A stretch of 62,237 nucleotides of DNA, taken from the IMG/VR virus record IMGVR_UViG_3300044940_000392, positions 1-62,237 of that record. One strand, written 5' to 3'. The position numbers were made by a program, and so were the translations under genes. Positions 4,024 to 59,936 of the stretch are shown here, piece by piece. Position 1 is the stretch's first letter; every line of letters starts with the position of its first letter. The notes under the pieces are model-generated. The model searched no databases. It was given only the letters and a program-made list of their open reading frames with translations, and was not told the origin of the DNA. The stretch is from a virus.

Positions 4024-5510
4024 TATTTACCAATAAGTGAACTGCCGTTTGGAAGATTTCCTGCTATTTGCGAATTTGCAGATTGTTTAGGTGCGCCGAA
4101 AGGATTTCCTGTATTGGCTTCGTTTCCACCAGAAGCCATGGAATATAAGCCGCCGCCGTAACGCCCGCCGCCACCGCCCGCAGCACTCATTCGAGAAACG
4201 CCGTTTCCAGATTGAGCATATAAACCACCGCGGCCCTGTGGCATGAAATATTGAGAATTCATATTTGAACCAAGTGGCGCGTTTTGATTTGTATTTGGCG
4301 TACCTGTCGCCGGAGCTTGCGGAGTACCGCCCGAAGGGGGTTGAGTTCCTGTATTACCTCCCGGATTCGGCATTTGAGGCGTTCCGATGTTTCCGGTTAT
4401 GTTATTGAAAATAGGGAACCCGTTGGGGCCGTTTATAAATTGCATTTGCCCGCCTTGGAATTGAACGGGGTTGGATGTTCCCATACCGGGGTTTGACGGA
4501 TTTCCGGGAACCGGACCCGAAGGAGTATATGTTGGATTCCCACCAGCAAACTTTGATGGGTCCCAACCGGGCGGCGCTTGCGGAGAAATTACTCCGCGTT
4601 CGACGAGGTTAATTGCGTCGGTATTAATATTTGGGTCATTTGTGTGTTGTTGATTCCATACACCCATTAGATTAATGACATCAGAAAGGGCGTTGAATGG
4701 ATTTTGTGACGACGCCGCGTTGCCTAAAAGTGACCCAATTGCGGAAGCGTCAATCATCTGCCCATTAGGCATTCGGATATATTGATCACGTTGCGTTGTG
4801 CCGAAAGTTGCGAATGGAGAAGTTACAACTTCGCCGCCAAGAAGTTTTGCTAATTCTTGGGGATTATTAATAACTCCTAATGCGCGGGTGATATTTTCAG
4901 TTTGGCCGTTATTGAAATTCTGCCACTGAATGTTCATCGGGTCAAAACCGAATTGTTGACCGCCGAGCATAGCTTTCATTAAATCAGACTGCCAGCCGGG
5001 GTTAGCATTAAACCAAGCCTGTTGCTGTGATGTAAATTGATTCTGTGCCGGGGGTTGTCCACTTCCAGCCGGAGGAGTTCCCGCAGGTGGATTTGTTGGC
5101 GTTTCCGTTTGTGCGGGATTTGGAATATTACTTAAAGTATTATACAAACCTTGTATTGAGCTAAAAAACGGATTTGGACGTGCCGTTTGATTTGTATTTT
5201 GAGGCGTTTGCTCAACCGAAGATTGAGAAACAGGGCGCGGCGATGTTGGCATTTGTTGACGAACGCCTTCCGGTTGATTAAACGTATTAATATCCATTGT
5301 TTGAATTGGATTTTGCATTTGCATTGCCGCCATGTAATCGTTTAAAGTAAATGGAGCAGGAGCTTGTATTTGAAATTGTTGACTGGGATTTGTAATCGAA
5401 GGTTGAGGCGTCGGATTAAATGGCGAAGTAGAAATAAAATTCTGTATATTATCGAAGCCGCCGTTGGAAAATGTAAATGGACTATAAAGCCCCTGTTCAA
5501 TTAATCCCAT
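4023..5510 (-). CDS. Pro/Asn/Gln-rich low-complexity virion protein
   Basis: About 495 residues if ATG at 5510 is used; a TTG at 5525 would add five. ATG is preferred because the bases before it match the leader of the gene starting at 1279. The protein is dominated by Pro, Asn, Gln, Gly and Thr with a Gly-rich tail. A middle part of about 100 residues (roughly 160-300) looks more globular. No family is recognised. It lies between the nozzle-like gene and another N/Q-rich gene, so a structural or ejected role is likely. Its stop overlaps the next start. Confidence 0.75.
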   Translation of the reverse strand: MGLIEQGLYSPFTFSNGGFDNIQNFISTSPFNPTPQPSITNPSQQFQIQAPAPFTLNDYMAAMQMQNPIQTMDINTFNQPEGVRQQMPTSPRPVSQSSVEQTPQNTNQTARPNPFFSSIQGLYNTLSNIPNPAQTETPTNPPAGTPPAGSGQPPAQNQFTSQQQAWFNANPGWQSDLMKAMLGGQQFGFDPMNIQWQNFNNGQTENITRALGVINNPQELAKLLGGEVVTSPFATFGTTQRDQYIRMPNGQMIDASAIGSLLGNAASSQNPFNALSDVINLMGVWNQQHTNDPNINTDAINLVERGVISPQAPPGWDPSKFAGGNPTYTPSGPVPGNPSNPGMGTSNPVQFQGGQMQFINGPNGFPIFNNITGNIGTPQMPNPGGNTGTQPPSGGTPQAPATGTPNTNQNAPLGSNMNSQYFMPQGRGGLYAQSGNGVSRMSAAGGGGGRYGGGLYSMASGGNEANTGNPFGAPKQSANSQIAGNLPNGSSLIGK

Positions 5511-7536: not shown

Positions 7537-8237
7537 TATTTCTTAGTCCTTTTTGGATCTTGTGAAGTTTTAACGTCAATAAACGGAAGCGGTTCTCGTT
7601 GACGAATTTCTTCAATCATTGATTCCATTTCGCCGCGTTGCCCGTTTGCCGTCATTTGTCCATTGGAAAATTGAATATTTCCGGCGCGCTGATCGTCCGC
7701 ATATCGGTACGCGTAGTATAGAACAATATTACGAAATACATCAATATATTCATCTGGAAAAATTAATGAACCGGGCGTGTATATTGTAGTTTCGTCAAGC
7801 GTGTTAAATTCTTTTTTATATGTCCCGGTTAGCGTCGGAAGTGTGCCCGGCGCATATCCAGATGGAACGGGAGAAAAACGATAATTACCATTAACACCTG
7901 CTCCCGAAATTGCTAATTGAGAGGGTTGTCCAGTTTTAGCGGATTCAAGCGGCAGAAATGGAACAATTTCTAATTCTTTTGTAAGTTTATCGGCAAATAT
8001 TAAATTTGCATCGACGCCATATAAAAAATCTGACGGAAGTGTTACTGTATAGTCTTGTGTGTTATTGACTAAAACTGTAGTAGGCAATGATCCTAAAGTC
8101 CAACGCCAAGGCGCGGCTCTCCAAAAATATCTGGCGGCGTCATTAAGAACCTCAACTTGCAGACGATATAGCGGCATATTTTTAATATACTGTTGTGCCC
8201 ATAACAGGGAATCAATAGGTCTTTCTGTTGCCGCCAT
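7536..8237 (-). CDS. Head-tail adaptor candidate, copy A
   Basis: 233 residues. Helical N-terminus, then a W-rich AAPWRWTLGSLP segment, then QDYTV.LPSDF.YG, a beta core with TGTYKKEF and LIFPDEY, and C-terminal helices. It shares motif order with the gene at 6829-7536: QDY followed by a P.DF loop, then TGTYK, then PD(D/E). The two probably form stacked rings at the portal exit, as separate adaptors do in several podoviruses. No alignment score is available. Confidence 0.6.
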   Translation of the reverse strand: MAATERPIDSLLWAQQYIKNMPLYRLQVEVLNDAARYFWRAAPWRWTLGSLPTTVLVNNTQDYTVTLPSDFLYGVDANLIFADKLTKELEIVPFLPLESAKTGQPSQLAISGAGVNGNYRFSPVPSGYAPGTLPTLTGTYKKEFNTLDETTIYTPGSLIFPDEYIDVFRNIVLYYAYRYADDQRAGNIQFSNGQMTANGQRGEMESMIEEIRQREPLPFIDVKTSQDPKRTKK

Positions 8238-8697: not shown

Positions 8698-9723
8698 TTA
8701 AGATTGAATCATTGTGGGAATCGTTAATCCCCAAGGACGTCCTGTGACGTTGCCTAATCTACCATAAAAGCCATAATGAGTGGGTGTAAATAGCAATGTT
8801 CTGGAAACAGTTTGAAGTGGTAAAAAATTTTCTCCATCACGGGAAATTCTAAAACCCCGGTTAGTATTATCATCAAACATTTGCATCCAGAAATCATGTC
8901 CCCATAGAGTTGATTGGTTATACGCCACAAGGTTTGCTTGGCCGCCAAAATTATTATTAGTGAATGTCGCACCTTCTAAAACAATAAATTGATTTGAATT
9001 TGATGTACTATATACTGAAAAAACATGACAGCCAGTTAAAGATACAGTATTTGAATTACTGAATAAAATTCCATATTGAGCAAATTGACCACTTTGTCCT
9101 CCTAAAAATTGCGGTAAAATTTTGAATGTAATAGTATATGGAGGAGTTGGTGTTGGGAGAAAGGCCATTTCCATTGCGCCTTGTGTATTACTATTTGTTC
9201 CGAAATATAATCCGCCCTTAGAATCAGTTAATGTTGCATTTCCATTTGTAGCAACAGTCCAATTTGAAGCCGCCGGGGGCCGGGTTACTTTTCGTCCATT
9301 TAGAAAGTAAATTAAATTCGTTCCATTATCATAAACGAATGGGTAATATGAATCTTCAAGAAGATAAACATTTCCTGTTTGCCCAGGAGAGGGAAGCGCG
9401 GCGAATGTTGAAGGACTGACTACTGATCCACTACTATTAGCAATAATATCCTCCATTGTTTTCTTAGTCACGATATTATACACCGTCGCTTGTGCGGAAT
9501 GTTCCGTTGCGGTAGTTCCTTGAAACCCTCGAGTTACTGTCCATAAAACTGTCGAGTTATTATCAACCCGAATAATTTCACTGTCAATTAAAACGTAAAA
9601 AAAATCGCCGGGGGAAGTGATTAAAGGAAATCCGTCATTAGAAGCAACTGGAATTGAGGTTTGAGACGCAGTGATTGACAGGGTTAATGACGTAACCGCA
9701 TTATTTGCAAATAATTCAGCCAT
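8698..9723 (-). CDS. Putative receptor-binding / tail fibre protein with lectin-like C-terminus
   Basis: 341 residues. Residues 18-84 form a small beta domain with WTVTRGFQGTTATEH, a module seen at the start of many tail proteins and also inserted in this phage's nozzle-like protein (residues 189-246). Residues about 150-341 are rich in aromatic and Asn/Ser/Gly residues in a pattern typical of concanavalin/LamG-like jelly rolls, which bind sugars. This suggests an anchoring domain joined to a host-binding domain. The product is exported on the virion, not secreted (no signal peptide). Confidence 0.6.
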   Translation of the reverse strand: MAELFANNAVTSLTLSITASQTSIPVASNDGFPLITSPGDFFYVLIDSEIIRVDNNSTVLWTVTRGFQGTTATEHSAQATVYNIVTKKTMEDIIANSSGSVVSPSTFAALPSPGQTGNVYLLEDSYYPFVYDNGTNLIYFLNGRKVTRPPAASNWTVATNGNATLTDSKGGLYFGTNSNTQGAMEMAFLPTPTPPYTITFKILPQFLGGQSGQFAQYGILFSNSNTVSLTGCHVFSVYSTSNSNQFIVLEGATFTNNNFGGQANLVAYNQSTLWGHDFWMQMFDDNTNRGFRISRDGENFLPLQTVSRTLLFTPTHYGFYGRLGNVTGRPWGLTIPTMIQS

Positions 9724-10358
9724 TAAATTCGAGCCTTTACATCCTTCCGTTTTCCTGTTTTAGAGGCCCATTCGGGAGTGTTGTCTGAAGAAAAAACTTC
9801 CTCAACGCGAGTTAAAGAAACGAGACCGGATTGAATTAATCGAATTAAAATTGTTCGATAACCCATTTTTGCAACATTCCACGGAATTGTGTATTTTGTC
9901 AACCCGGGCTTTTCGCCTTCGTCAATTTGAATAATTCCATTAATATCGACCCGCGGCGCGTCCATTTTTTTCGGTGTCCACGAAGGATTTAAGCTATCAG
10001 GATCAACGTCAGTAATCGTGCGTGTATTTAATAATGTCCTCTCAGGAACGATACCTTCTTCAAACGCGGCGATGTATTTTTTTGGATTTAATCGAGTATT
10101 ATACACAACCCATATATTTGGTTTTTGTGGATGACGCTCTACTTGAACGTAATATGATAATTGTTCAAGTTTATTTTTAACATCCGTACTTGATAAACAA
10201 TTTCCCATTTGAGATACAACACTCGTCGGATCATTGTCTTTTCCGAGCAGCACGGCATTTTCATACTGACGAAGTGAATCTAAAATTCTTTGATTATCAG
10301 TTTCGACTTGCTTAAAAAAACTATCTGTTTGTAATTGTTCCGTGTCTTTGATTAACAT
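9723..10358 (-). CDS. Tail-cluster protein, unknown
   Basis: 211 residues without recognised motifs. It has a helical first 60 residues, then mixed alpha/beta, ending in a basic segment (KTGKRKDVKARI). Its start lies 38 nt inside the 3' end of the membrane protein gene at 10321-10596. Its stop overlaps the fibre gene's start. Virion or assembly role is inferred from position only. Confidence 0.65.
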   Translation of the reverse strand: MLIKDTEQLQTDSFFKQVETDNQRILDSLRQYENAVLLGKDNDPTSVVSQMGNCLSSTDVKNKLEQLSYYVQVERHPQKPNIWVVYNTRLNPKKYIAAFEEGIVPERTLLNTRTITDVDPDSLNPSWTPKKMDAPRVDINGIIQIDEGEKPGLTKYTIPWNVAKMGYRTILIRLIQSGLVSLTRVEEVFSSDNTPEWASKTGKRKDVKARI

Positions 10359-16300: not shown

Positions 16301-18565
16301 TTACCAAGGGACGCCAGAAAGTTTAGGAATACCTTCTGTTGTATAATACTCCGCATCCTCATCCCAGGGTGAAAGAATTCCTAGCGCTGCTTCCTCCATT
16401 TTTGATTTGTAAATTTCAATTTCAGGCTTAGCATCAAGCCGCCCGAAGTATTCTTTTCCGTTAAAAAAATCTGATAAACAGTCAAGAATATCATCGTTCG
16501 GAGAATTCGGAAATTGAATTAATTGTTTTTTCAATGCCTCTAAAGCTTCAATATTTGACAAAAACCTCATTTCGCGGTTAATGTACCACGGTTGAAGTGT
16601 TTTTAAAATTCGTTCAGTTTTGCTTAATGACGTATCGCGTTTAATGAATTCCAGAGGGAGCTTGAAACCTGGGTATTTTTTCTGTAAAACTTCTTCTTCG
16701 CGCCCGATTGCGGCGTTTAAACCGCGGACGAACCCCGTTTCTTCAATTTTAATTTTTAATACAGGAGATATTTTCGATTTATTCCACTTAATATATAAAG
16801 CCAATAAATTTGAAACGATCTGGTTTGGCAACCATTTTCCATAAATGATATCCACGATGTAAGGTCGTCCGCTTTTCGACCACGCCGCAACAGCCATTGC
16901 TGTATAATCCGACCGCCCGCCTACTGTTTCTGCTGTATCGACGGAAATTTCGTAATGAGATACTCGGATATTTTGTTTGAATTTATCCTCGTCGATTAAT
17001 GCAGGATAATTCTCCTTAGGATCGACCGGGAATAATACTTGTCCATCGACGCCGCCTATAGGAAAATTCAATTGCTGTGAATTGCTAGAAGCATACCCTT
17101 GTGAAATGTAGTTTCCGGTTTCAGTTTCAAGTGCGTACACAGTTTCAGTTGAATGATATGTAATATCAAGAATTTTAACTTTAGTACCAAAATGGCTTGC
17201 CCGATTTTCTAAATTTTTATAAATTAATTCTTTTTTACCAAGAATTCCATGAACAGCAAATAATCTCCATAATTCACTTCCAATTTTTGGAACATCATAT
17301 ATTTTTTTACCACCGCCGCGCTTTCCCATGTACCATTTATGATCTAGGGTGCAATATATATTTTCTCCATTTGAAAGAGATAGTTTATATACGTCTGCGG
17401 TTTTAGAAAAAACAGCCTTAACTTTTGTTTTTATTAACCGTGGAGTTTCAGACGGAACATATACATTATCAAATCCAATAATTTCATCTCCAACCTTAAT
17501 AGTGGAAATATCACTTTCTGACCAATCGGCTTTTAAGATTTTAGCCCAAGAGGGCGTACAAGAAAACGTCGCTTGGTCTGTGCGTTCCATTTCTTCGAGT
17601 TTCTGTAATGTAAATCTTTCTGGCCATACAGGGATGCGTTTTCCTTCTTTATCTTTTTTAAAGGGAAGGTTTTGCTCTTCCGGAGTATACTCAGGAGGTT
17701 TTTCACCTGTGTCTCGCTCAAAGCACGCACGGACGTACATAAGATACTCAGGTTCTCGATTCTCTTTTTTTGCCTTTTCATATCCTTCGATAATTTTTCC
17801 ATAAACGTCTCCGAAATTATATCTTGTCCCTTCTACGTCAATCCAGTACGACGGCGCGACGAGAAGATTTTCAGCCATATAAAAAGATTTTGCAACTTTA
17901 TCTAACATGTCGCCATAACAATTATTTGGATCGACAATATCAGAAAATTTTATGACATCAAAGTGAAGCCCGGCAGTGCCTTTTTCAATTGATCCCGCCA
18001 GCACCGAAGGTTCTTTACGCATTGATGTAATGTCATAAAATGGGCGGATATTAAATTGCCCGACTTTACCGAAATCATTTACTGATTTTTGCGGGCAAAG
18101 TTCGGGAAATAATTGACGAAGCCGCGGGTTATGTCGAAAGTGATCGCGGATTTCATCTACGATCATATTACCTTTATCAAGGTTTGATTGGATAATATGT
18201 ATCGCCGCGTCGGGATAATTTAACAACCACTGAATTGTGTGCGCTTGGCAATTAATTGTGGTTTTTAAATGTCCGCGGGAGTCAAGAATAAGCCTGCGGC
18301 GCTTTCCGGGAAGTTTTACAAATTCTTTTAATGTATATATCGGTTTATATTTCCAACGCCCGTTTTCGTAAATATCATTAGCTTCAAACTGTTCACGCGT
18401 CGGTTTGGGAAATGCTTGAAGAGTTTTTATTAATCCTCCGTGTACTTTATCCGAAACATCGACGTACCCGAGAATTTCGTTACAGAGATAAATTAAATCA
18501 AACCGTGCAAGCCATCGCGCTTTTCTCCAAGCAACTACCTCCTGCGCGGATATTTTTTGTTTCAT
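16301..18565 (-). CDS. terL: Large terminase subunit interrupted by a mini-intein
   Basis: 754 residues as translated. The ATPase loop SRGHLKTT (residues 96-103) is a deviant Walker A common in phage terminases, with an acidic Walker B-type strand VIKFSDI (204-210). The nuclease domain starts near ISVDTAETVGGRSD (540-552), whose Asp residues are the expected metal ligands, and continues to the D-rich SPNDDILD near the end. Residues 336-495 are an intein inserted after TFS. Removing it restores TFSSQQLNFPIG, the usual terminase junction between ATPase and nuclease parts, leaving a 594-residue enzyme of normal size. The enzyme pumps DNA into the procapsid and cuts concatemers. Confidence 0.9.
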   Translation of the reverse strand: MKQKISAQEVVAWRKARWLARFDLIYLCNEILGYVDVSDKVHGGLIKTLQAFPKPTREQFEANDIYENGRWKYKPIYTLKEFVKLPGKRRRLILDSRGHLKTTINCQAHTIQWLLNYPDAAIHIIQSNLDKGNMIVDEIRDHFRHNPRLRQLFPELCPQKSVNDFGKVGQFNIRPFYDITSMRKEPSVLAGSIEKGTAGLHFDVIKFSDIVDPNNCYGDMLDKVAKSFYMAENLLVAPSYWIDVEGTRYNFGDVYGKIIEGYEKAKKENREPEYLMYVRACFERDTGEKPPEYTPEEQNLPFKKDKEGKRIPVWPERFTLQKLEEMERTDQATFSCTPSWAKILKADWSESDISTIKVGDEIIGFDNVYVPSETPRLIKTKVKAVFSKTADVYKLSLSNGENIYCTLDHKWYMGKRGGGKKIYDVPKIGSELWRLFAVHGILGKKELIYKNLENRASHFGTKVKILDITYHSTETVYALETETGNYISQGYASSNSQQLNFPIGGVDGQVLFPVDPKENYPALIDEDKFKQNIRVSHYEISVDTAETVGGRSDYTAMAVAAWSKSGRPYIVDIIYGKWLPNQIVSNLLALYIKWNKSKISPVLKIKIEETGFVRGLNAAIGREEEVLQKKYPGFKLPLEFIKRDTSLSKTERILKTLQPWYINREMRFLSNIEALEALKKQLIQFPNSPNDDILDCLSDFFNGKEYFGRLDAKPEIEIYKSKMEEAALGILSPWDEDAEYYTTEGIPKLSGVPW
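17081..17560 (-). other. Mini-intein (Hint domain) within the terminase gene
   Basis: Residues C336 to N495 of the terminase reading frame, 160 residues. Block A begins with Cys and carries a KVGDEIIGFDN strand. Block B is NIYCTLDHKWY with the T..H motif at T406/H409. The end reads ETGNYISQGYASSN followed by Ser as first residue of the C-extein. There is no room for a homing endonuclease, so this is a mini-intein. The residue before the terminal Asn is Ser, where most inteins have His, as happens in a minority of active inteins. Cys1, Asn-end and Ser+1 are all present, so splicing is plausible. Confidence 0.85.
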
Positions 18566-22030: not shown

Positions 22031-22282
22031 ATGCCAAAAATTAAATTAAATGTGAATGATCTTCGCGCAATTTTTTATTATCGTTCGATTGGATATCCTA
22101 TAGATAAAATTGCTTCAGCATTTTTTATCTCTAAATCTCATGTTTCGCGGATTTTGAACTTTGAGCGCTGGGAAAAGAAGAGAAGTCAAATCTTTTCGCG
22201 AGAATTTGATCAAACTGATACCAAGAAGCCGGAGGAGAACCGGACCGAAGTTGAGTATGAACAGGCTCAACAAGACGTTTAA
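22031..22282 (+). CDS. Small helix-turn-helix protein on the opposite strand
   Basis: 83 residues on the plus strand between the minus-strand endolysin and fibre operons. Residues 8-45 read as a canonical HTH (DLRAIFYYRSIGYPIDKIAS, then FISKSHVSRILNFERW), the type found in small phage DNA-binding proteins. The last 50 codons overlap the 3' end of the endolysin gene on the other strand; that part is charged and disordered-like. This is the only clear HTH regulator in the late arm. It may control the late operons that flank it. Confidence 0.6.
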   Translation: MPKIKLNVNDLRAIFYYRSIGYPIDKIASAFFISKSHVSRILNFERWEKKRSQIFSREFDQTDTKKPEENRTEVEYEQAQQDV

Positions 22283-27554: not shown

Positions 27555-27583
27555 ATTTTATCAAATAGTTTAAAAACTGTCAA
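27555..27583 (-). promoter_or_regulatory. Strong sigma-70-type promoter
   Basis: Minus strand TTGACA (27583-27578), 17-bp spacer, TAAAAT (27560-27555). This is a perfect -35, a near-perfect -10 and ideal spacing. The predicted start of transcription is around 27548, the first base of the coiled-coil gene's ATG. It is one of the best promoter matches noticed in the window. Confidence 0.8.
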
Positions 27584-27599
27584 CATTTTATAAAGTATT

Positions 27600-28019
27600 T
27601 TGTCTAAGTTTTTCTTTCTGGCTTCAGAAGCTTTAGCGGATAATAAAAGCATGATAGTGAATAAATTCCGTGCGTTCGGTTTTAACAAAAAATCATTTTA
27701 TTATGATGTATTTATTCACGCTACACTTTCGTCCCTGCGCGACGAATGGGATAAGTTGCCTAAAAATGCCACGCCGCACGGAAGCAACGGAGTTAATGCA
27801 TATACATTAAAATACTTTCCGCCTGAGAAAAAGTGTTTGGGCGAAATTCATTTGACTAAAAACTCCCCGGAGGATATTATTTCTCATGAATGTTGTCACG
27901 CCGCGCTACATTATATTTCAAATAAAAAATATCCAGCCGGGCTTGACTTAGAAGAAGAATTTTGCTACAATCAACAATATTTTTTTAAGAATATTAAAAA
28001 TAAACTTCGCGTAAATTGA
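27600..28019 (+). CDS. Zinc metallopeptidase-like protein (HECCH motif)
   Basis: 139 residues from TTG at 27600; ATG at 27651 would give 122. The motif ISHECCHAALHY (H96, E97, H100) is a HExxH metal site, followed by an acidic segment (LDLEEEFCYNQQ) that could supply the third ligand. Size and pattern fit small phage peptidases of the SprT/IrrE-like kind, but no alignment was made. It is the first plus-strand gene and directly precedes the repeat region, so it may be transcribed at once after infection. Possible role: cutting a host regulator. Confidence 0.6.
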   Translation: MSKFFFLASEALADNKSMIVNKFRAFGFNKKSFYYDVFIHATLSSLRDEWDKLPKNATPHGSNGVNAYTLKYFPPEKKCLGEIHLTKNSPEDIISHECCHAALHYISNKKYPAGLDLEEEFCYNQQYFFKNIKNKLRVN

Positions 28020-28241
28020 TTAACATAGTCCGCTGTGCTATCGAAAAAGTTGCCTAAAATACCGCCGCCGGGTTGCCTAAAAATAAAAACCGCGTTTCCA
28101 TATATAAAATCTTTAATATAAAATCTTTAGACAACTTTTAGAAAATTTTTCTGAAATTTTTGTAAAAATTTTTGTAAAAATTTTTTCCTTCAATCGAGAA
28201 CTTAACATCACATGTGCCAAAGCCCACATGTAATCGGAAAA

Positions 28242-28670
28242 GTACTAGTACTAAAGTACTAAGGGTACCAGTACCCCCGGTCTAGTACTATGGGACCCCT
28301 TTCCCAGTACTAAATTGGTACTAAAGTACTATTGACACCTACATTTTTCTGTGCTCTAGTACTAAAGTACTACACATTAATGTGACTAAAGTACTATTGA
28401 CTTTAGATAGTAATAGGATAGAAGTACTATCGGTACTATAGAAATTGGTATTAAGGTACTATACAATTCGTACTAAGTACGGGATGTCAATAGGAATTTA
28501 GTACTATACAGTACTAGATGTAAAATGAACCGTTCGTACTATTAACTTCCCGAGGAATGTATGAATGTAGTACTAAAGTCCCACCGGGCACACCCACGCG
28601 GCTAAGTCAAGTACTATTTTCCAATTTAATCACTTAGTACCTTCGTACTGCAAAAATAAATCGAAAGTAC
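28242..28670. repeat. Cluster of 25 GTAC sites (AGTACTA repeats)
   Basis: GTAC begins at 28242, 28248, 28256, 28265, 28271, 28285, 28307, 28318, 28326, 28359, 28367, 28391, 28424, 28433, 28456, 28470, 28477, 28501, 28511, 28536, 28570, 28611, 28637, 28645 and 28667. About 1.7 are expected by chance. The usual core is the palindrome TAGTACTA. The dimer GTACTAAAGTACTA occurs at 28248, 28318 and 28359 with 8-bp spacing, and AAAGTACTATTGA recurs near 28323, 28388 and 28664. Sites are irregularly spaced, unlike a CRISPR. They look like binding sites for one protein. Confidence 0.9.
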
Positions 28671-28778
28671 TATTGAGGTCCCACGTTTTATGTATTTTAA
28701 AAATGGTATACTACATATTGTGGTGGGTTTAGGGGAAGATACTATATGTAGTGGTGTGGTGGAATAGATATTTGTTAT

Positions 28779-28807
28779 TTGACTATAAGCGGGCGGGTGT
28801 ATATATG
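28779..28807 (+). promoter_or_regulatory. Candidate early promoter
   Basis: TTGACT (28779-28784), 17-bp spacer, TATATG (28802-28807). The -35 is good and the -10 mediocre. It faces the early operon whose first ATG is at 28970. A second weaker candidate with an extended -10, TGGTATACT, ends at 28712. Confidence 0.45.
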
Positions 28808-28969
28808 TGTGCGTGTATCTTAAACAACTTTTAGTGCGGGTGAAGTCAGATAGAGGGACCGCGAAAATAAGTGGAACAAACGGCGCCTATAGGTGCTATA
28901 GTATTAATAGAGAGATTCCTCTCAATCACGGTTTGGCCGTATTCCGTCAAACGGCCTATAGGAGTAAAT

Positions 28970-29236
28970 ATGGCTCGTGGGAAAACCACCACTAAGGCGT
29001 TTGTGGACGCCCGAATTAACGTTGAGGACCTCATTTGGCACATTGCCAAGCAGGGGGGACAGTATGTATCTCCCCTGAAGCTGGGGAAAATCTTGTATGA
29101 GCTTGAAGCTCAGATTCAGGACGCCGCTAAGGCAGCGATGATGGAAGCGGTTAAGAACCGCGTTCACCTTGCGGCAAATCTTCCGGTCAATGAAGAGGAA
29201 CTCACCACGGAGGATTACGTTTCTGTAATCCCCTAG
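28970..29236 (+). CDS. First early protein, unknown
   Basis: 88 residues from ATG at 28970, chosen because CTATAGGAG lies 6-14 bases upstream and the longer ORF reads through a structured leader. Basic N-terminus (MARGKTTTKAF), then a helical body (LKLGKILYELEAQIQDAAKAAM) and acidic end. No family is recognised. As the first gene after the GTAC repeat region it is a fair candidate for the protein that binds there, though no DNA-binding fold is evident. Confidence 0.65.
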   Translation: MARGKTTTKAFVDARINVEDLIWHIAKQGGQYVSPLKLGKILYELEAQIQDAAKAAMMEAVKNRVHLAANLPVNEEELTTEDYVSVIP

Positions 29237-29304: not shown

Positions 29305-29661
29305 ATGAATTACGAAATAGCCCAACAGTGGGTAGCCGCGCTGAGGAGCGGGGAATATGCCCAAGAAAAGTCTAGACTGAAATCAGACAACGGCTATTGT
29401 TGTTTGGGTGTTTTGTGTGATTTATACACAAAACAAAATCCATATGTAAAATGGAAGTCATTGGAATCAGTGACAGCATATTTCATTCTAGAGCATAGTC
29501 TTGTTCTGCCTTGCGAAGTGAAAGAATGGGCCAGAATGAAGTCGGAGTGCGGGCAATTCATCGAAGAAGGAATGTTTTTGCGACTAGATAAAATGAATGA
29601 CGACGGTCATTCATTTAACGAAATCGCCGATGTAATAGAAAAAGTGTGGGAGAGATTATAG
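29305..29661 (+). CDS. YCCLGVLCDLY family protein, copy 1
   Basis: 118 residues. A first of six copies in this genome. Family pattern: a start I...W..ALRSG.Y.Q.K..L, then GYCCLGVLCDLY (here residues 30-41 with C32, C33, C38), a middle part with LP.EV.EWA, and an end L..MND.G.SF.EIAD.IE. Three conserved Cys and several aromatic residues suggest a compact fold, perhaps metal-binding. Good ribosome site AGGAGG. Similar proteins occur widely in phages but I know of no assigned function. Confidence 0.75.
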   Translation: MNYEIAQQWVAALRSGEYAQEKSRLKSDNGYCCLGVLCDLYTKQNPYVKWKSLESVTAYFILEHSLVLPCEVKEWARMKSECGQFIEEGMFLRLDKMNDDGHSFNEIADVIEKVWERL

Positions 29662-31726: not shown

Positions 31727-32878
31727 ATGATCGAGTGCTTAAAGTCCAAATCTGGGAAAACTAAATTCTCAGATTACGAAATTTTGGAATATCCTAATAT
31801 GAGGAAAGGCGAGTATGCGGTTCCTATCGGTATGATTAAGACCGATATTGGAAATCTGTATTTATTCAGATTTATCATATTCGGCGGGGTTAATAATTTC
31901 TTTCATCAATCATACGTTCAAGTTATTTATGAACGTATGCCGATGAGTAGAACCAAAATTTTCTATTCAAACAGGGAATTAGAAAATAGTTTTGGTTATT
32001 ACAATGAATTTTTTTCTTCAGTGTATTGGTCGAATTGGAAGAAATCTAAAGATGATCCAATACTAATCAAACCGCGAAAATGTTCTAATTGGATCGAGAG
32101 GGAAATAGTACGGGTTGTATACGGGGAATACAATCTATTGGATAGCAATATCTTAGTCTATCCAATAAAGCACTTTCCGCATATTGTTGTTAAGGATAAG
32201 GAACTGTTTGTTTCTTTTATTCCTGACGATAAATACGGGGACGCGGACCGCCGGGTTCAAATGAAGATCGGACGGTATTTGACTAAATATACCGCGTATT
32301 CAAATGAGGAAATTAAAACTCTCATTCTAAAACTTAAAATTCATCATTTAGCTGAAAATAGTTTCAGCCTTCACTTCACTGAAGATAGAGATAAAATACG
32401 GGAAATTTTCGAGATTCCTATGTATGCTCAGGACTCCAGTCAAGTTTCCTGTATGTATAACAAATTTCAGGCTTGGGAATTTCGCCCATACGACATATAT
32501 GCTCACAACCCGACAATGTGTGTCGCATATATGACTTGCGAAGAACTCATTGTTGCGCGATCAGTAATTAATGTTGCAGAAAACGGCTACGTCCGCACAT
32601 ATGCAATAAAGGAAAATAATTCCTTATTGCATACTAAATTCCGTAAATTGTTACAAAGTGAAGGTTATCATAAAACCTCACTTGAAGGGTGCTGGTTTTA
32701 TGCTAATTATACTAAATCAGGCCACTTAATCGCGCCATATATTGATGGGGACGCACAGAAGGGAATAGCTTTAGGAACTAATCGAGTTTCGATTGTTAGT
32801 TCTGATGAATGGTCCTGCTGGGATTATGAATTCACTTCTACTGACGGCGTAGCTGAGCCGGGCAGCGAAGATAAATAA
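31727..32878 (+). CDS. Paralogue pair member 1, SCM/RPYDIYA protein
   Basis: 383 residues, about the same length and order of motifs as the next gene. Shared blocks: KHFPHIVV.(D/E)K.L.VS, then KYG....R......G.YL, then VSCMYNKF..W..RPYDIYA.NPTM.VAYM, then IARSVIN....GYVR.YAIKE, then KTSLEGC.F.ANY and a final APYIDG.AQKG. The SCM...YA.NP...ARS block recalls a widespread, uncharacterised phage protein family. Function unknown. The pair arose by tandem duplication. No signal or membrane segment. Confidence 0.75.
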   Translation: MIECLKSKSGKTKFSDYEILEYPNMRKGEYAVPIGMIKTDIGNLYLFRFIIFGGVNNFFHQSYVQVIYERMPMSRTKIFYSNRELENSFGYYNEFFSSVYWSNWKKSKDDPILIKPRKCSNWIEREIVRVVYGEYNLLDSNILVYPIKHFPHIVVKDKELFVSFIPDDKYGDADRRVQMKIGRYLTKYTAYSNEEIKTLILKLKIHHLAENSFSLHFTEDRDKIREIFEIPMYAQDSSQVSCMYNKFQAWEFRPYDIYAHNPTMCVAYMTCEELIVARSVINVAENGYVRTYAIKENNSLLHTKFRKLLQSEGYHKTSLEGCWFYANYTKSGHLIAPYIDGDAQKGIALGTNRVSIVSSDEWSCWDYEFTSTDGVAEPGSEDK

Positions 32879-32896
32879 TTTTGAAGGAGAAAGAAT

Positions 32897-34027
32897 ATGA
32901 ATACTTCAAATGAACTAGAAGTTATTAAACTTGATGGTATTTATAATACTGAGCAGTATTTAATACCATTAGCAGTAGCGAAAACAAGCGTCGGAAACTT
33001 CTATCTCGCCAAGAATGTTTCTTTATTTAATTATCGGCAAGAGATAACAGTATCTGATTATCTTTTTGGATATGAAAGAAACCATCTTAGGCACTTTTAT
33101 TGTTTCTCCGACAGCAGGGAGATGAATAATTATTTTCTGCCAAATGGTTTCTTCGATATTGACATAACTGCTGTTCGGATTAAGAATATAATGAATGAAC
33201 CCGTCATTTGTTATTTGAAGAAAGTGAATGACTGGCGTGCCCGGGAATGCTATAAGATTGCCCTCGGAGAATATACTCCAATAAATCCAAACTACTTTAA
33301 GTATATCCCCCAACACTTTCCACATATCGTTGTGTACGAGAAAAACTTATATGTCTCGTATTTCATCAACGAAAAATACGGAGAATCGAATCGACGGGCT
33401 GTAACTCGATTGGGAAAATACTTGCGTAGTTTGAATATGTATTCAAACGAGGAAATTAAAGATATTGTTGAAAAAATGAAAATCAAATATATAGATTTTC
33501 ACGATTGTGAATTAAAATTTACATCCAATAAGGATAAGATTCGGCAGATATTTGAGACTCGAATGATGGCGGAAGATTCAGATAGAGTTTCCTGCATGTA
33601 TAATAAATTCAACCACTGGAAAGTTCGCCCTTACGACATATATGCTGATAATCCGACAATGGAAGTAGCATATATGGAACGCAAGGGGAAAATAATCGCA
33701 CGGTCAGTGATTAATTCATTAAGCCGTGGTTATGTGCGGCCCTATGCGATTAAAGAGGATAATAAAATGATTATCCATAAATTTATCGAACTTCTTTCCG
33801 ACAATAAATATAATAAAACAAGTCTTGAAGGGTGCTGTTTTACAGCTAACTATAATCAAGCGCTTGAATTAGTTGCGCCGTATATTGATGGTAAGGCGCA
33901 AAAAGGAGTTCTTTTACCAGATAGAAAGATAAGGATTGTACATAATAATTCGAAGAAATGGGACTTTGAATTCGACAATACCGAAGGGGTTGCCTTTGAT
34001 AATGATGAAAATGAGGAAATAGAATAA
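32897..34027 (+). CDS. Paralogue pair member 2, SCM/RPYDIYA protein
   Basis: 376 residues. Matches the previous gene along its whole length with clear substitutions, strongest from the VSCMYNKF..W block to the end. It follows after only 18 bp with ribosome site AAGGAG and its stop overlaps the start of the peptidase gene by one base. Conservation of both copies suggests each has a role. Possibly they bind each other. Confidence 0.75.
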   Translation: MNTSNELEVIKLDGIYNTEQYLIPLAVAKTSVGNFYLAKNVSLFNYRQEITVSDYLFGYERNHLRHFYCFSDSREMNNYFLPNGFFDIDITAVRIKNIMNEPVICYLKKVNDWRARECYKIALGEYTPINPNYFKYIPQHFPHIVVYEKNLYVSYFINEKYGESNRRAVTRLGKYLRSLNMYSNEEIKDIVEKMKIKYIDFHDCELKFTSNKDKIRQIFETRMMAEDSDRVSCMYNKFNHWKVRPYDIYADNPTMEVAYMERKGKIIARSVINSLSRGYVRPYAIKEDNKMIIHKFIELLSDNKYNKTSLEGCCFTANYNQALELVAPYIDGKAQKGVLLPDRKIRIVHNNSKKWDFEFDNTEGVAFDNDENEEIE

Positions 34028-34849: not shown

Positions 34850-34889
34850 GTACTACTTATTTGCACCGCATATACGAACATAGTACAAT
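34850..34889 (+). promoter_or_regulatory. Good sigma-70-type promoter with GTAC boxes
   Basis: TTGCAC (34861-34866), 17-bp spacer, TACAAT (34884-34889). GTAC sites lie just upstream (34850) and overlapping the -10 (34883). The same motif is concentrated at 28.2-28.7 kb, so a GTAC-binding regulator could act here. Leader of about 25 bp with GGGAGGAG before the ATG at 34920. Confidence 0.7.
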
Positions 34890-37726: not shown

Positions 37727-37809
37727 AAGATATCATACTTTGGGTATTGGTGTTTTTTCTAATGGTTGAAGTAATCGCCAGTTACTTTGAAAGGAAAATT
37801 AATGAATAA
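37723..37809 (+). CDS. 28-residue membrane peptide
   Basis: MKDIILWVLVFFLMVEVIAS then a charged end. ATG overlaps the previous stop (ATGA) and the stop overlaps the next start. One transmembrane helix. Unknown. Confidence 0.4.
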   Translation: MKDIILWVLVFFLMVEVIASYFERKINE

Positions 37810-38161
37810 AGAAATTAAAGAAAAATGGATCGCCGCGCTTCGCAGTGGTGAATATACACAAGCAAAAGAAGTATTAAAAAATGAAGATAGTTTTTGTTGC
37901 CTAGGTGTTCTATGCGACTTGTATTCAAAAGAAAAGAATATACCATGGAAACCCGGGGGGATCGGTCTTTCAATAGAAGATTGCTATTTTTCCTTACCTG
38001 CTAAAGTTATTGACTGGGCGGGATTCAAAAATAAAAAACCAATTCCAATAGTGACTTTACCTGATGAGCGTGCTGTGGATCTTTCCGCGTTAAATGATAC
38101 GTTTAACTTTTCATTTAACCAAATTGCGGATTTAGTTGAACAACAAGGAGATAATTTGTAA
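37802..38161 (+). CDS. YCCLGVLCDLY family protein, copy 2
   Basis: 119 residues from ATG at 37802 (GAAAGGA lies 10-15 bases upstream). It has IAALRSGEYTQAKE, then SFCCLGVLCDLYSKE (Tyr replaced by Phe), then LPAKVIDWAG and SALNDTFNFSFNQIADLVEQ. Same core as copy 1 with more divergent middle. Overlaps the next start by one base. Confidence 0.75.
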   Translation: MNKEIKEKWIAALRSGEYTQAKEVLKNEDSFCCLGVLCDLYSKEKNIPWKPGGIGLSIEDCYFSLPAKVIDWAGFKNKKPIPIVTLPDERAVDLSALNDTFNFSFNQIADLVEQQGDNL

Positions 38162-40276: not shown

Positions 40277-40633
40277 ATGAATCAAAAAATTGCAAAAAAA
40301 TGGATCGATGCTTTGCGTAGTGGGCAATATAGAAAATCTAAACATTGTCTTAAAAATAAACGCGGTTATTGTTGTTTAGGTGTATTAACGGATTTATACA
40401 GAAAAGAACATAAAAAAGAATGGGATTATAATTCAAACCATAAACAATATTCTTTTATGTTTGCATATAATTTCTTACCAAAAGAAGTTATAGAATGGGC
40501 CGGAATGAGAAATGAGTTTGGAGAGTTTTATGTAAATAAAGAAAAAAGAATTACATTATATGAAGAAAATGATAAAGGAAAATCGTTTTCAGAGATTGCG
40601 GATATTATTGAAAAATATCTGGAAGTATTGTGA
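40277..40633 (+). CDS. YCCLGVLCDLY family protein, copy 3
   Basis: 118 residues: WIDALRSGQYRKSKHCL, then GYCCLGVLTDLY (third Cys is Thr here), LPKEVIEWAGM, and an end NDKGKSFSEIADIIEKYL. It is closest in C-terminal part to copy 1. It begins just after the structured RNA segment, so its expression might be controlled by it. Very Lys-rich. Confidence 0.75.
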   Translation: MNQKIAKKWIDALRSGQYRKSKHCLKNKRGYCCLGVLTDLYRKEHKKEWDYNSNHKQYSFMFAYNFLPKEVIEWAGMRNEFGEFYVNKEKRITLYEENDKGKSFSEIADIIEKYLEVL

Positions 40634-41210: not shown

Positions 41211-41606
41211 ATGAATACTCAAATTGCACAGGAGTGGGTTTATGCTTTAAGGAGCAGAAAATATGAACAAGCAAAAGGTAATTTGAAAACATTTTCAGGT
41301 TATTGCTGCTTGGGTGTTTTATGTGATTTACATAAAAACCAAACACAAGAAGGTGAATGGATAATTTCCCAAGATGGAAATTATTGTTATAAAACAAAAT
41401 CTGAAGAATCTAGAATTTTTTTACCTGAAGAAGTCGTTGAATGGGCGGGAGTAAAAACATTCAATCCTTATATTACAAACGAAGAAAAATGCGAAAAAAC
41501 GGATAAAAAATTTATGAAAAAAATACCGTTATCACGATTGAATGATAATTATTGGAACTTTCGTGAAATTGCTGAAATCATTGAAAAATATCAGGAGGAA
41601 CTATAA
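41211..41606 (+). CDS. YCCLGVLCDLY family protein, copy 4
   Basis: 131 residues: WVYALRSRKYEQAKGNL, then GYCCLGVLCDLHKNQ, LPEEVVEWAGV, SRLNDNYWNFREIAEIIEKY. All three Cys present. Part of a run of three copies (41211, 41608, 42010), each following within a few bases, so recent tandem duplication is likely. Its C-terminus carries an extra Lys-rich insertion (KKFMKKIPLS). Confidence 0.75.
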   Translation: MNTQIAQEWVYALRSRKYEQAKGNLKTFSGYCCLGVLCDLHKNQTQEGEWIISQDGNYCYKTKSEESRIFLPEEVVEWAGVKTFNPYITNEEKCEKTDKKFMKKIPLSRLNDNYWNFREIAEIIEKYQEEL

Positions 41607-41607
41607 A

Positions 41608-41997
41608 ATGAAAGTTGAAATTGCACAAAAATGGATTAATGCATTAAGAAGAGGTGAATATGCACAAATAAAAAGAACCTTGAAATCTTTTTCCGGCTTT
41701 TGTTGTTTAGGTGTTCTATGTGACATTCATAGAAAAGAAACCGGAAAAGGCAATTGGGATTTTCAGTCATCAAATGGTGAAATTTGTTATAACATTGATG
41801 CAAGAGATTATACTGCTTTCTTACCGAAAGAAGTGTGTGAATGGGCAGGTATAAAAGAAGAAGATCCTAGAGTATTATTAAGTGACGAAGAAAATCCTGC
41901 TGAAAAAAACATGTCCTCTTTATCATCCTTAAATGATAGTGGAACTAGTTTTTCGGAAATTGCGGATATTATTGAGGAAAATATCGAAACAATATAA
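41608..41997 (+). CDS. YCCLGVLCDLY family protein, copy 5
   Basis: 129 residues from ATG at 41608. The longer frame to 41542 lies inside copy 4. WINALRRGEYAQIKRTL, then GFCCLGVLCDIHRKE, LPKEVCEWAGI and SSLNDSGTSFSEIADIIEE. Ribosome site AGGAGG lies 11-16 bases before the start. Second of the tandem triple. Confidence 0.75.
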   Translation: MKVEIAQKWINALRRGEYAQIKRTLKSFSGFCCLGVLCDIHRKETGKGNWDFQSSNGEICYNIDARDYTAFLPKEVCEWAGIKEEDPRVLLSDEENPAEKNMSSLSSLNDSGTSFSEIADIIEENIETI

Positions 41998-42009
41998 GAA
42001 GAGATTATA

Positions 42010-42363
42010 ATGAATATACAAATTGCTGAAAAATGGATTGAAGAATTAAGAAGCGGAAACTACGTACAAGGAAAGTTTAAGCTAAAATCCAATGAAGGAT
42101 ATTGTTGCTTAGGTGTTCTATGTGAGCTTTATCTGAAAGAAAATCCTAAAAAAGAAAACTGGAAATACAATAAAATAGTAGATGCATACACAATTTTTAA
42201 TGAGTATGATTATTTACCTGAAGAAGTCCAGAAATGGGCGGAAATAAAATCAGATGATGCATATCTTTCTCCGGGTGTATCTTTAAGTATCTTGAATGAT
42301 CGTCTTGATTATGATTTTAATCGAATCGCACAAATTATCGAAAATGAAAAGGAATTTCTATAA
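42010..42363 (+). CDS. YCCLGVLCDLY family protein, copy 6
   Basis: 117 residues: WIEELRSGNYVQGKFKL, then GYCCLGVLCELYLKE, LPEEVQKWAEI, SILNDRLDYDFNRIAQIIE. Third of the tandem triple. The next gene begins on the next base. It preserves the Cys and the LND..(D/S)F..IA end despite about half of the residues differing. Confidence 0.75.
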   Translation: MNIQIAEKWIEELRSGNYVQGKFKLKSNEGYCCLGVLCELYLKENPKKENWKYNKIVDAYTIFNEYDYLPEEVQKWAEIKSDDAYLSPGVSLSILNDRLDYDFNRIAQIIENEKEFL

Positions 42364-57688: not shown

Positions 57689-59936
57689 TCGGCGGTTGCT
57701 GCGGTTGTTGATTTTGCTGCGGCGCGGGTGCCGATTCATTTGTGACTGCTAATTCTTTCAAATATTCAACTATGTCAGTAAGCTCATTTTCAGTAATGGG
57801 CTTACTTTCATTTTTAATGAACGTCGCAAGATAAGGGACTTGCGCGTATGTAAGCGTGCCGCCCGAATCAATAAATCGAATAAAATCATTCGCAAGACGT
57901 TCATTCCGTAAAGCTGTCCGAATAAGAACCGGAGTAGCAATCGCAAGAGCCGCGATTCCCGTTGCCGCGGTTTTCAGTAAAGCGCCACCGTGAAATTGAG
58001 ACGCGCCGAAGAGCATATAAATACCTTGGTATGCCGCGCCGCGAATAGCCGCCCCGGTTAAATACGACCGAACATAATCTGAAGTTGTACGATTATTTCC
58101 TTGAGGTACAGCTTTAATTAACCGATCCGCGAGTTTCGCGAATTTTTCCTGCCCACCCGGAACACCATAAAATTGTTCAATATTAGGAAGGCCATATTTG
58201 GCCAAATAATTCTGCATGTTTGAGAATTGGTTTGTTTTTGGATCAATAGACTTTACAAAAAAATCAAATACAATCGCATCCCCCATAGCTTCATTAAACG
58301 CTTTCTGTTGCGCTTGTGGGATATATTTAATAAAATCAGAATATTCATCCGGGCGCATACTACGAACAATTTGTACGAATTCGTCAATATTTTCCCCCGA
58401 TTGGACAATTTTTTTAATATTCGGAGGTAATACGCTTAAGGAATTAAGTTGCTCTTGTACGGTTTTGATTTCATTTTGTACTTTTTGTAAATCAACTCCT
58501 GTAATTTCTTTTTGTTTTTTATAAAAATCAGCTTCCTCTTGATTAATTTTTGCAATTTCAGTTTTAGCTTTTGTTTGTTCTGTTTTTAACTTTTTTTCTT
58601 CGGTATTTAGCCCCGCTTGATATTTTTTATTTATTTGTAAATTTCTATCTGCGGCGGTATATTGCCGTTTAAATGCGTTTAACTCTTTATCAACAAGTTT
58701 CTTATCAATTTCAAATGATTTAATACTTTCATCAAATGATGAATAAATTTGCTTGTATTTGTTGTCTAAAAGTTTTAACGCGTCTGCTTTTTGCGCACGA
58801 TTCATTTTCTTGTTAAGTAAAATTTTGCGCTGTTCAGTAAGATAATCTTGCTTCCATTGTTCCTTTGAAAGTTGATTTTTCAATTGATCGGCGGATTTAT
58901 CAATTTGTGTATCTTTTAGCCCGCCCTGCGTTTCTTTAGAAACTCTTTCCTTCGCAATACTATTTGCAACCGCGGCTTGCCTAGCTTGGGCACGGCGGAT
59001 GATAATATCGTTTAATTTATCATTTACTTCATCGAGTTGTTTAAGTAGAATATCTCGCTGTAAATATTGTTGAGTTTTTGCAAACGGCCCGGTCGCGGAA
59101 TTTGCAGTAAAAGATTTTAACTGATCTTCAAGCGTTGTTTTTTGAGATTCAAGCCCTGTAATTATATTTTCCAACGGCTCTAATGTCGTGGTGCGAATTC
59201 CTTCTTGTGCAGTTTTAGCAAGTGGTTTAGCTTTATCAAATGCGAAAGGCGCAAGTGCATTATACGGTGAAGCGGTCGCCTGTTTTGATAAATTTTTATT
59301 TGTCAATTGATCCAAAAGCCCCGGAATTGCGCGTTTTAAGCGTGCAGAAATAACCCCTGGAGAAGCTTCACCTACATTCTTCCAAGCATTGCCGACATTC
59401 GGAAGAAGCATTGATGTAATTCCTTCGGGAGAAATAGGATTAAAACCTTGAGGTTTATCCGTATCAATGCCCGTTTGAAGCATTTTACCTGCTTCGGCCT
59501 CAGCCAACCCCGCCCCACCACGGATTACAGGGCCTAGCATAGCAGGGGCCTTTGACGCTACCGTTCCCACACCTTTGCCAATCGCGCCGCCGAACAGAGA
59601 GCCAAGAGTACCCGCCGCCCACTCTCCTTTTGTCATAGGTGGAAAAGCGAAGCCTAGCGAAGCCCCCACACCACCACCGAGCGCCGCACCGGGAACGCCG
59701 CCCCCTACCACGCCGCCGCCTATAGCCCCCGCAGTACCCATACCGAGCGCCCCAAGCAGACGATCTTTCATTGTTACTTCATTTGAAACAGGATCAATTG
59801 TTTCTGTTTTTAATTTTGTAAGATCAATATTCGGATCATCGGCGAGGGTATTATATAGTAATTCAATTTCTTCTTTTGAACTTGCAGTATAAACTTGACC
59901 GTTTGGCGTTGTAATTTTTAAAGTCTTACTGGGCAT
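57612..59936 (-). CDS. Large DNA-ejection-type protein with glycine zippers
   Basis: 774 residues. Residues about 60-125 are very Gly/Ala-rich with GxxxG patterns (AIGGGVVGGGVPGAALGGG...) and residues 615-680 have two more hydrophobic Gly/Ala segments (LTGAAIRGAAYQGIYMLFGA; AATGIAALAIATPVLIRTAL). Between them lies a long charged coiled coil (250-500). This is the make-up of podovirus internal virion proteins that insert into the host envelope. Its 3' end overlaps the helicase gene by 77 bp on the other strand. First gene of the late unit on this side. Confidence 0.65.
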   Translation of the reverse strand: MPSKTLKITTPNGQVYTASSKEEIELLYNTLADDPNIDLTKLKTETIDPVSNEVTMKDRLLGALGMGTAGAIGGGVVGGGVPGAALGGGVGASLGFAFPPMTKGEWAAGTLGSLFGGAIGKGVGTVASKAPAMLGPVIRGGAGLAEAEAGKMLQTGIDTDKPQGFNPISPEGITSMLLPNVGNAWKNVGEASPGVISARLKRAIPGLLDQLTNKNLSKQATASPYNALAPFAFDKAKPLAKTAQEGIRTTTLEPLENIITGLESQKTTLEDQLKSFTANSATGPFAKTQQYLQRDILLKQLDEVNDKLNDIIIRRAQARQAAVANSIAKERVSKETQGGLKDTQIDKSADQLKNQLSKEQWKQDYLTEQRKILLNKKMNRAQKADALKLLDNKYKQIYSSFDESIKSFEIDKKLVDKELNAFKRQYTAADRNLQINKKYQAGLNTEEKKLKTEQTKAKTEIAKINQEEADFYKKQKEITGVDLQKVQNEIKTVQEQLNSLSVLPPNIKKIVQSGENIDEFVQIVRSMRPDEYSDFIKYIPQAQQKAFNEAMGDAIVFDFFVKSIDPKTNQFSNMQNYLAKYGLPNIEQFYGVPGGQEKFAKLADRLIKAVPQGNNRTTSDYVRSYLTGAAIRGAAYQGIYMLFGASQFHGGALLKTAATGIAALAIATPVLIRTALRNERLANDFIRFIDSGGTLTYAQVPYLATFIKNESKPITENELTDIVEYLKELAVTNESAPAPQQNQQPQQPPINQGSEGVGFPPPASQEQLVSPPNQ

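Follow-up and report, generated by a model that had tools for sequence, protein, structure and literature searches.

A clustered and oriented array of GTAC sites at the early/late junction of a tailed phage genome, a candidate binding field for control of the early arm

The junction between the early and late gene arms of the phage genome analysed here carries a clustered and oriented array of a short, selected motif with the consensus A-GTAC-T-A (25 cores, 28242–28670, plus strand), and such an array recurs at the junction of another phage. With moderate confidence, we interpret the array as a cis-acting field of binding sites for one DNA-binding protein, acting primarily on transcription of the early arm; we infer the protein binding, the direction of its effect and the identity of the protein.

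The genome, IMGVR_UViG_3300044940_000392, is a single virus record of 62,237 bases with phage genes; its full length is referred to as the window. A minus-strand arm of late genes (about 1.3–26.9 kb) codes for terminase, portal, major head protein and tail proteins, with endolysin and ribonucleotide reductase near its start, and the plus-strand early arm (about 29–57.7 kb) codes for thymidylate synthase, an exonuclease-like protein, Sak4, dUTPase, DNA polymerase and primase/helicase. The source is a tailed, virulent-looking phage. Scanning of the window proteins, several small ones of which belong to no family, revealed neither ParA, ParB, integrase or Rep nor a repressor, and no RNA family matched anywhere in the window. 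The large subunit of the terminase (16301–18565, minus strand) seems to hold an intein-like insert, extending from CTPSWAKILKADW to near ISQGYASSN, which is missing from the terminase of Tunturiibacter phage Tunturi_3 in an alignment.

The surplus of GTAC noted in the preliminary description, 25 sites in 429 bp, was confirmed exactly: the 25 starts fall within 28242–28667, where the density elsewhere in the record predicts 0.75 (Poisson P ~2e-29). The baseline of one site per 256 bases on which that description relied does not apply, the genome-wide rate being about one per 470–670 bp. A count across the rest of the record found it to be far sparser, the next densest 429-bp stretch containing 5 GTAC; in 100 simulated order-3 Markov genomes the maximum in any 429 bp was 7, and GTAC ranks first in clustering among all 256 tetramers. 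Noncoding GTAC outside the array was found 10 times, as compared to roughly 17–19 expected. The GTAC boxes near the promoters at 34861 and 48450, to which the array had been linked, are therefore unremarkable, and GTAC as a general promoter element was rejected because noncoding sites elsewhere are not enriched.

In the core-aligned sites, the base 5′ of GTAC is A in 18 of 25 cases, and the two bases 3′ of it are T and A in 21 of 25 cases each, with little conservation beyond A-GTAC-T-A. GTAC being identical on both strands, only the flanks indicate a direction: GTACTA reads forward only at 15 sites, both ways at five, and in reverse only at one, i.e. mainly towards the early arm. The gaps between sites are irregular (6–41 bp, most commonly 8 and 6), and no helical phasing with a 10.5-bp periodicity was detected among them (permutation P 0.84). 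After masking of the cores, the spacers did not share words above the level of shuffled sequences (P 0.23, 0.47 and 0.47 for k = 4, 5 and 6), and one-mismatch GTAC words number 16 versus 15.8 by chance, which leaves no sign of copies in decay. Tandem duplication, decayed or not, was rejected as the origin of the array on account of the unrelated spacers and the chance level of damaged copies; coding Ser/Thr repeats, which explain most loci retrieved with a loose GTAC pattern, do not explain this one. The simplest reading is that selection maintains every core as a short recognition site, and the earlier proposal that one protein binds all sites is well supported, if indirectly, by the invariant core, the A/TA flanks, the unrelated spacers, damaged copies no more frequent than chance, and the common orientation. 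That the array is functionless, resulting from recent repeat expansion or from faulty assembly, appears very improbable. Some of the pairs (the three copies of GTACTAAAGTACTA) could be mutual copies of each other, but the properties of the spacers and of the damaged copies argue against expansion, as does the independent occurrence of an array at such a junction in a different phage, G316, described below, and scattered 7-mers in unique sequence are not produced by any assembler.

The motif TAGTACTA and its 8-bp-spaced dimer occur as previously described, the latter as three copies of GTACTAAAGTACTA and one of GTACCTTCGTACTG. Dimers of the form AGTAC-N4-GTACT are located on the plus strand at 28246–28261 and 28357–28372 (both TAGTACTAAAGTACTA), and at 28636–28649 (AGTACCTTCGTACT); a further plus-strand dimer, TGGTACTAAAGTACTA, lies at 28316–28331. 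At 28324–28337 (plus strand), the sequence AAGTACTATTGACA contains a GTAC box that leads directly into a -35-like TTGACA, and AAAGTACTATTGA recurs at 28389 and 28665; three copies run into -35-like sequences. No convincing -10 partner was found for these -35-like sequences, and the promoter scan does not list the one at 28324–28337. The scan gave no clearly good promoter within the array, which speaks against a role in early-arm control. The exact dimer-plus-box pattern yielded 18 matches in 257 Gb of bacterial genomes, close to the 14–15 estimated by chance, indicating that it is not a common bacterial element.

The dimers raise the question of host LexA-type SOS boxes, since they resemble the boxes of cyanobacterial LexA (PMC3091678). 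According to such a reading, AGTAC-N4-GTACT would be the operator of a cyanobacterial-type LexA, and the array would couple the early arm to host DNA damage or titrate LexA. Four pairs in the array match the Nostoc box RGTACNNNDGTWCB (PMC3091678), a cyanobacterial consensus that may not be that of the host; four pairs in G316 match as well, all of them perfect AGTAC-N4-GTACT, although the pattern used to select G316 itself contains the dimer. The resemblance is limited to the dimeric subset, as only 8 of the 25 sites are part of dimers, the other 17 having no GTAC partner at that spacing, and at the other boxes any enrichment of partner half-sites is weak. One or two boxes are the norm for LexA operators. 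A nucleotide search with a 20-kb part against 291 cyanobacterial genomes returned only short chance-level or low-complexity matches. We consider LexA control of the array unlikely.

The array is situated in a gap (28020–28969) that is noncoding apart from a 5′ extension of the open reading frame 28871–29236. The first gene of the early arm (28970–29236, plus strand), encoding a protein of 88 aa of no known family, starts about 300 bp downstream of the array. On the other side, the perfect inverted repeat ACATGTG-N8-CACATGT (28209–28231), a hairpin, lies between the array and an AT-rich flank (28085–28200), which is a candidate unwinding element. The AT-rich neighbour with short repeats mentioned in the preliminary description is indeed present, with an AT content of up to 84% at 28101–28200 and with tandem repeats of 14 bp and 11/12 bp at 28102–28129 and 28142–28185. 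The array had also been placed where the two arms diverge; it does lie at the arm junction, but actually at the head of the plus arm, with some 0.6 kb between it and the point of divergence. This position follows from a strong sigma70-like promoter at 27583–27555 (TTGACA-17-TAAAAT, 11/12, TG present), which in the promoter scan was the strongest promoter-like site nearby on the minus strand and points into the minus arm with the array behind it, and from the plus-strand open reading frame 27600–28019, which separates the array from the divergence point.

The chief alternative to early-arm control is a replication origin, possible but clearly the less probable of the two. AGTACTA would then represent initiator-binding iterons, and the stretch at 28085–28200 the unwinding element. 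The phage encodes DNA polymerase, primase/helicase and Sak4 itself and therefore needs an origin, and the short, directional repeats of the array, next to a stretch that ranks among the most AT-rich of the window and has repeats of 11–14 bp, would suit one. Iteron origins with AT-rich unwinding elements, as described for plasmids (PMC4980987) and for the origin of the phage satellite PLE (PMC7145576), likewise combine clustered direct repeats with an adjacent AT-rich stretch in a noncoding gap; the array differs from them in its much shorter unit, in its irregular spacing without helical phasing, and in the absence of a neighbouring initiator gene and of DnaA boxes. No initiator family was matched among the genes beside the array, and no DnaA-box-like site was found within 600 bp of it, the nearest being at 29422. 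Cumulative GC skew, proposed earlier as a check, gave a divided answer: the raw curve, with its minimum at 1252 and its maximum at 57858, has no extremum at the array, but the detrended curve reaches its minimum at 28684, on the right-hand border of the array. The change in skew tracks the switch of the coding strand and could reflect transcription as well as replication; in G316, array and detrended minimum lie 2 kb apart. Because the spacing is irregular and neither an initiator nor DnaA boxes were found, control of early transcription is favoured over an origin; the AT-rich flank and the skew keep the origin a candidate, and the two functions may coincide.

When virus contigs were searched for GTACTAAAGTACTA-N0-30-GTACTA, 19 matched, most of them with isolated matches or matches in coding sequence. 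A second array was found in G316 (IMGVR 3300019487_000012), a phage contig of 42.2 kb, which has 11 GTAC in 102 bp (32898–32999) versus 0.19 expected (Poisson P ~3e-16). This array is located in a gap (32387–33206) exactly between a minus-strand early arm, coding for DNA polymerase, Sak4, exonuclease, helicase and primase, and a plus-strand late arm, coding for terminase, portal and head protein. It resembles that of the window in its word, in its gaps of 8 bp (four) and 6 bp (two), and in its noncoding position where the early arm begins; read towards the early arm, GTACTA occurs seven times forward and twice in reverse, and the phrases GTACTAGTAC, GTACTAAAGTACTA and GTACCAGTAC are common to both. 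In the pooled arrays, 12 of the 22 gaps of ≤15 bp measure 6 or 8 bp (uniform model, P ~6e-5). A run of A/T adjoins the G316 array too, which would also be in line with an origin. Since G316 was chosen by the three-site GTACTAAAGTACTA pattern, part of the motif similarity is due to selection, but its position, eight further sites and the arm layout are independent of the pattern. Judging from its proteins, G316 is apparently unrelated to the window phage, with one accessory protein family in common. Structurally unrelated tailed phages might carry a junction GTAC array as a mobile control cassette, the target of a common host regulator such as a LexA-type SOS repressor; we regard this as a long shot, in which case the array would be a multi-site SOS switch or a regulator-titrating sponge during infection.

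Scans with ribonucleotide reductase (RNR), DUF932, terminase and portal did not reveal a close relative covering the array region, and the two close matches from the capsid scan (95% and 78% identity) are short fragments that stop before reaching it. Two syntenic relatives, G002 (IMGVR 3300048587_000332, 61.8 kb) and G009 (IMGVR 3300048834_000258, 73.6 kb), have capsid, portal, terminase, tail, polymerase, primase and Sak4 in common with the window phage, at about 30–41% identity. The early arm of both begins with a compact array of AGTATA, GTATAC and TATACT (11–13 counted matches in about 110 bp), which folds into strong hairpins; AGTATA/GTATAC palindrome arrays with perfect hairpins lie at 4326–4413 of locus L211 and 9791–9880 of locus L244, from two related phage records. 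With 96–98% identity between G002 and G009, as compared to about 80–92% for adjoining coding sequence and mostly lower values for other noncoding sequence, the array is the most conserved noncoding block between them. Like the GTAC array, it consists of short noncoding palindromes where the early arm begins, but with AGTATA/GTATAC and perfect hairpins. Because the core word differs, it is an analogue in position and not a proven homologue, and the difference in core word also counts against our preferred reading. The repeats at the end of G002 (GCCAAC) belong to a pentapeptide-repeat gene.

Repeats 5′ of ParA-like genes were encountered on two contigs. In G009 (71.1–71.6 kb; locus L245, 11081–11575), an inverted-repeat array of TGCCTCTATGGAGGCATA, which probably is a partition site, directly precedes a ParA-like gene, and an unrelated contig (locus L173, 11440–11735) has GTAC repeats with an exact 8-bp spacing in the corresponding place. 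Both would be compatible with the GTAC array serving as a centromere for partition in a phage that has a plasmid-like phase. However, the scanned window proteins include no ParA, ParB, integrase or Rep, and the ParA-linked repeats of G009 differ from the array at its junction, which makes a centromere decidedly improbable.

Intergenic clusters of AGTACT/GTAC are also present in distant capsid relatives (locus L249, 829–965; locus L261 of G016, 7931–8000 and 9037–9110), one of them adjoining a TTGACA-16-TATAGT promoter, and the palindrome GTTCACTNAGTGAAC is repeated across the G016 genome. The only cultivated relative from Acidobacteriota is Tunturi_3, whose largest noncoding gap (78.7–80.3 kb; locus L176, 28676–30337) is rich in short repeats, among them AACGTACTCAATA (four copies) and AGACCT (six copies).

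Position at the junction, the G316 array and the arrays of G002 and G009 all support the preliminary proposal of an operator field or origin at this place; as to which of the two it is, the sequence does not decide. The proteins suggested there as binders of the sites are not convincing. For the product of 28970–29236, no family, database relative or solved relative was found, and a low-confidence model (pLDDT 60) is helical without a strand, for which reasons a ribbon-helix-helix protein was rejected. The product of 22031–22282 is plausibly a small HTH protein, given a weak match to HTH_23 below the Pfam cut-off, but no homologue was detectable in the array-bearing phages. The sole clear protein family common to the window phage and G316 (phmmer) is phrog_18067-like and has six paralogs in the window, encoded by 29305–29661, which adjoins the array, 37787–38161, 40277–40633, 41211–41606, 41542–41997 and 42010–42363. 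Homologues occur singly in G316 and in Tunturi_3 and in five places in Synechococcus phage B23. The family was rejected as GTAC binder because its carriers Tunturi_3, Synechococcus phage B23 and Alteromonas AD45 have no comparable array in the parts examined; that no binding protein was found, the only family common to both GTAC-array phages also occurring in phages that lack the array, weakens the case for early-arm control.

Among known systems, the operator/stoperator sites of mycobacteriophage L5, recognized by a Gp71-type repressor (PMC9283540), offer a parallel. Both systems comprise more than 20 copies of a short asymmetric site whose orientation is correlated with transcription, and in L5 one protein reads all sites, as is proposed here for the GTAC array. 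The L5 stoperators, however, are 13-mers scattered over the genome, whereas the sites of the array have a core of 4–7 bp and all lie within 429 bp; those of cluster A phages are dispersed in intergenic spaces, whereas there is no surplus of GTAC in noncoding sequence beyond the array. L5 is a temperate phage with a known repressor; among the scanned proteins of the window phage, several small ones of which match no family, neither a repressor nor an integrase was found. The combination of many exact copies with absent helical phasing is unusual for operators and iteron origins alike.

In the early-arm control that we favour, one sequence-specific protein, encoded by the phage or the host, would recognize AGTACTA with its GTAC core and load on many or all of the 25 sites, mostly in a common orientation, to form an extended nucleoprotein complex just 5′ of the early arm. 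Its primary task would be transcriptional, setting or shutting down transcription that enters 28970 and beyond, and the many weak sites would result in a graded or switch-like dose response; the complex may also serve replication. If this holds true, the array shows where the switch lies in a phage lineage without a cultivated close relative, and the seven bases of AGTACTA would provide a handle for finding the protein that throws it. The recurrence in G316, which has no detectable structural-gene homology, would then imply that control regions either move between phages or converge on one regulator, whatever the rest of the genome in which they reside.
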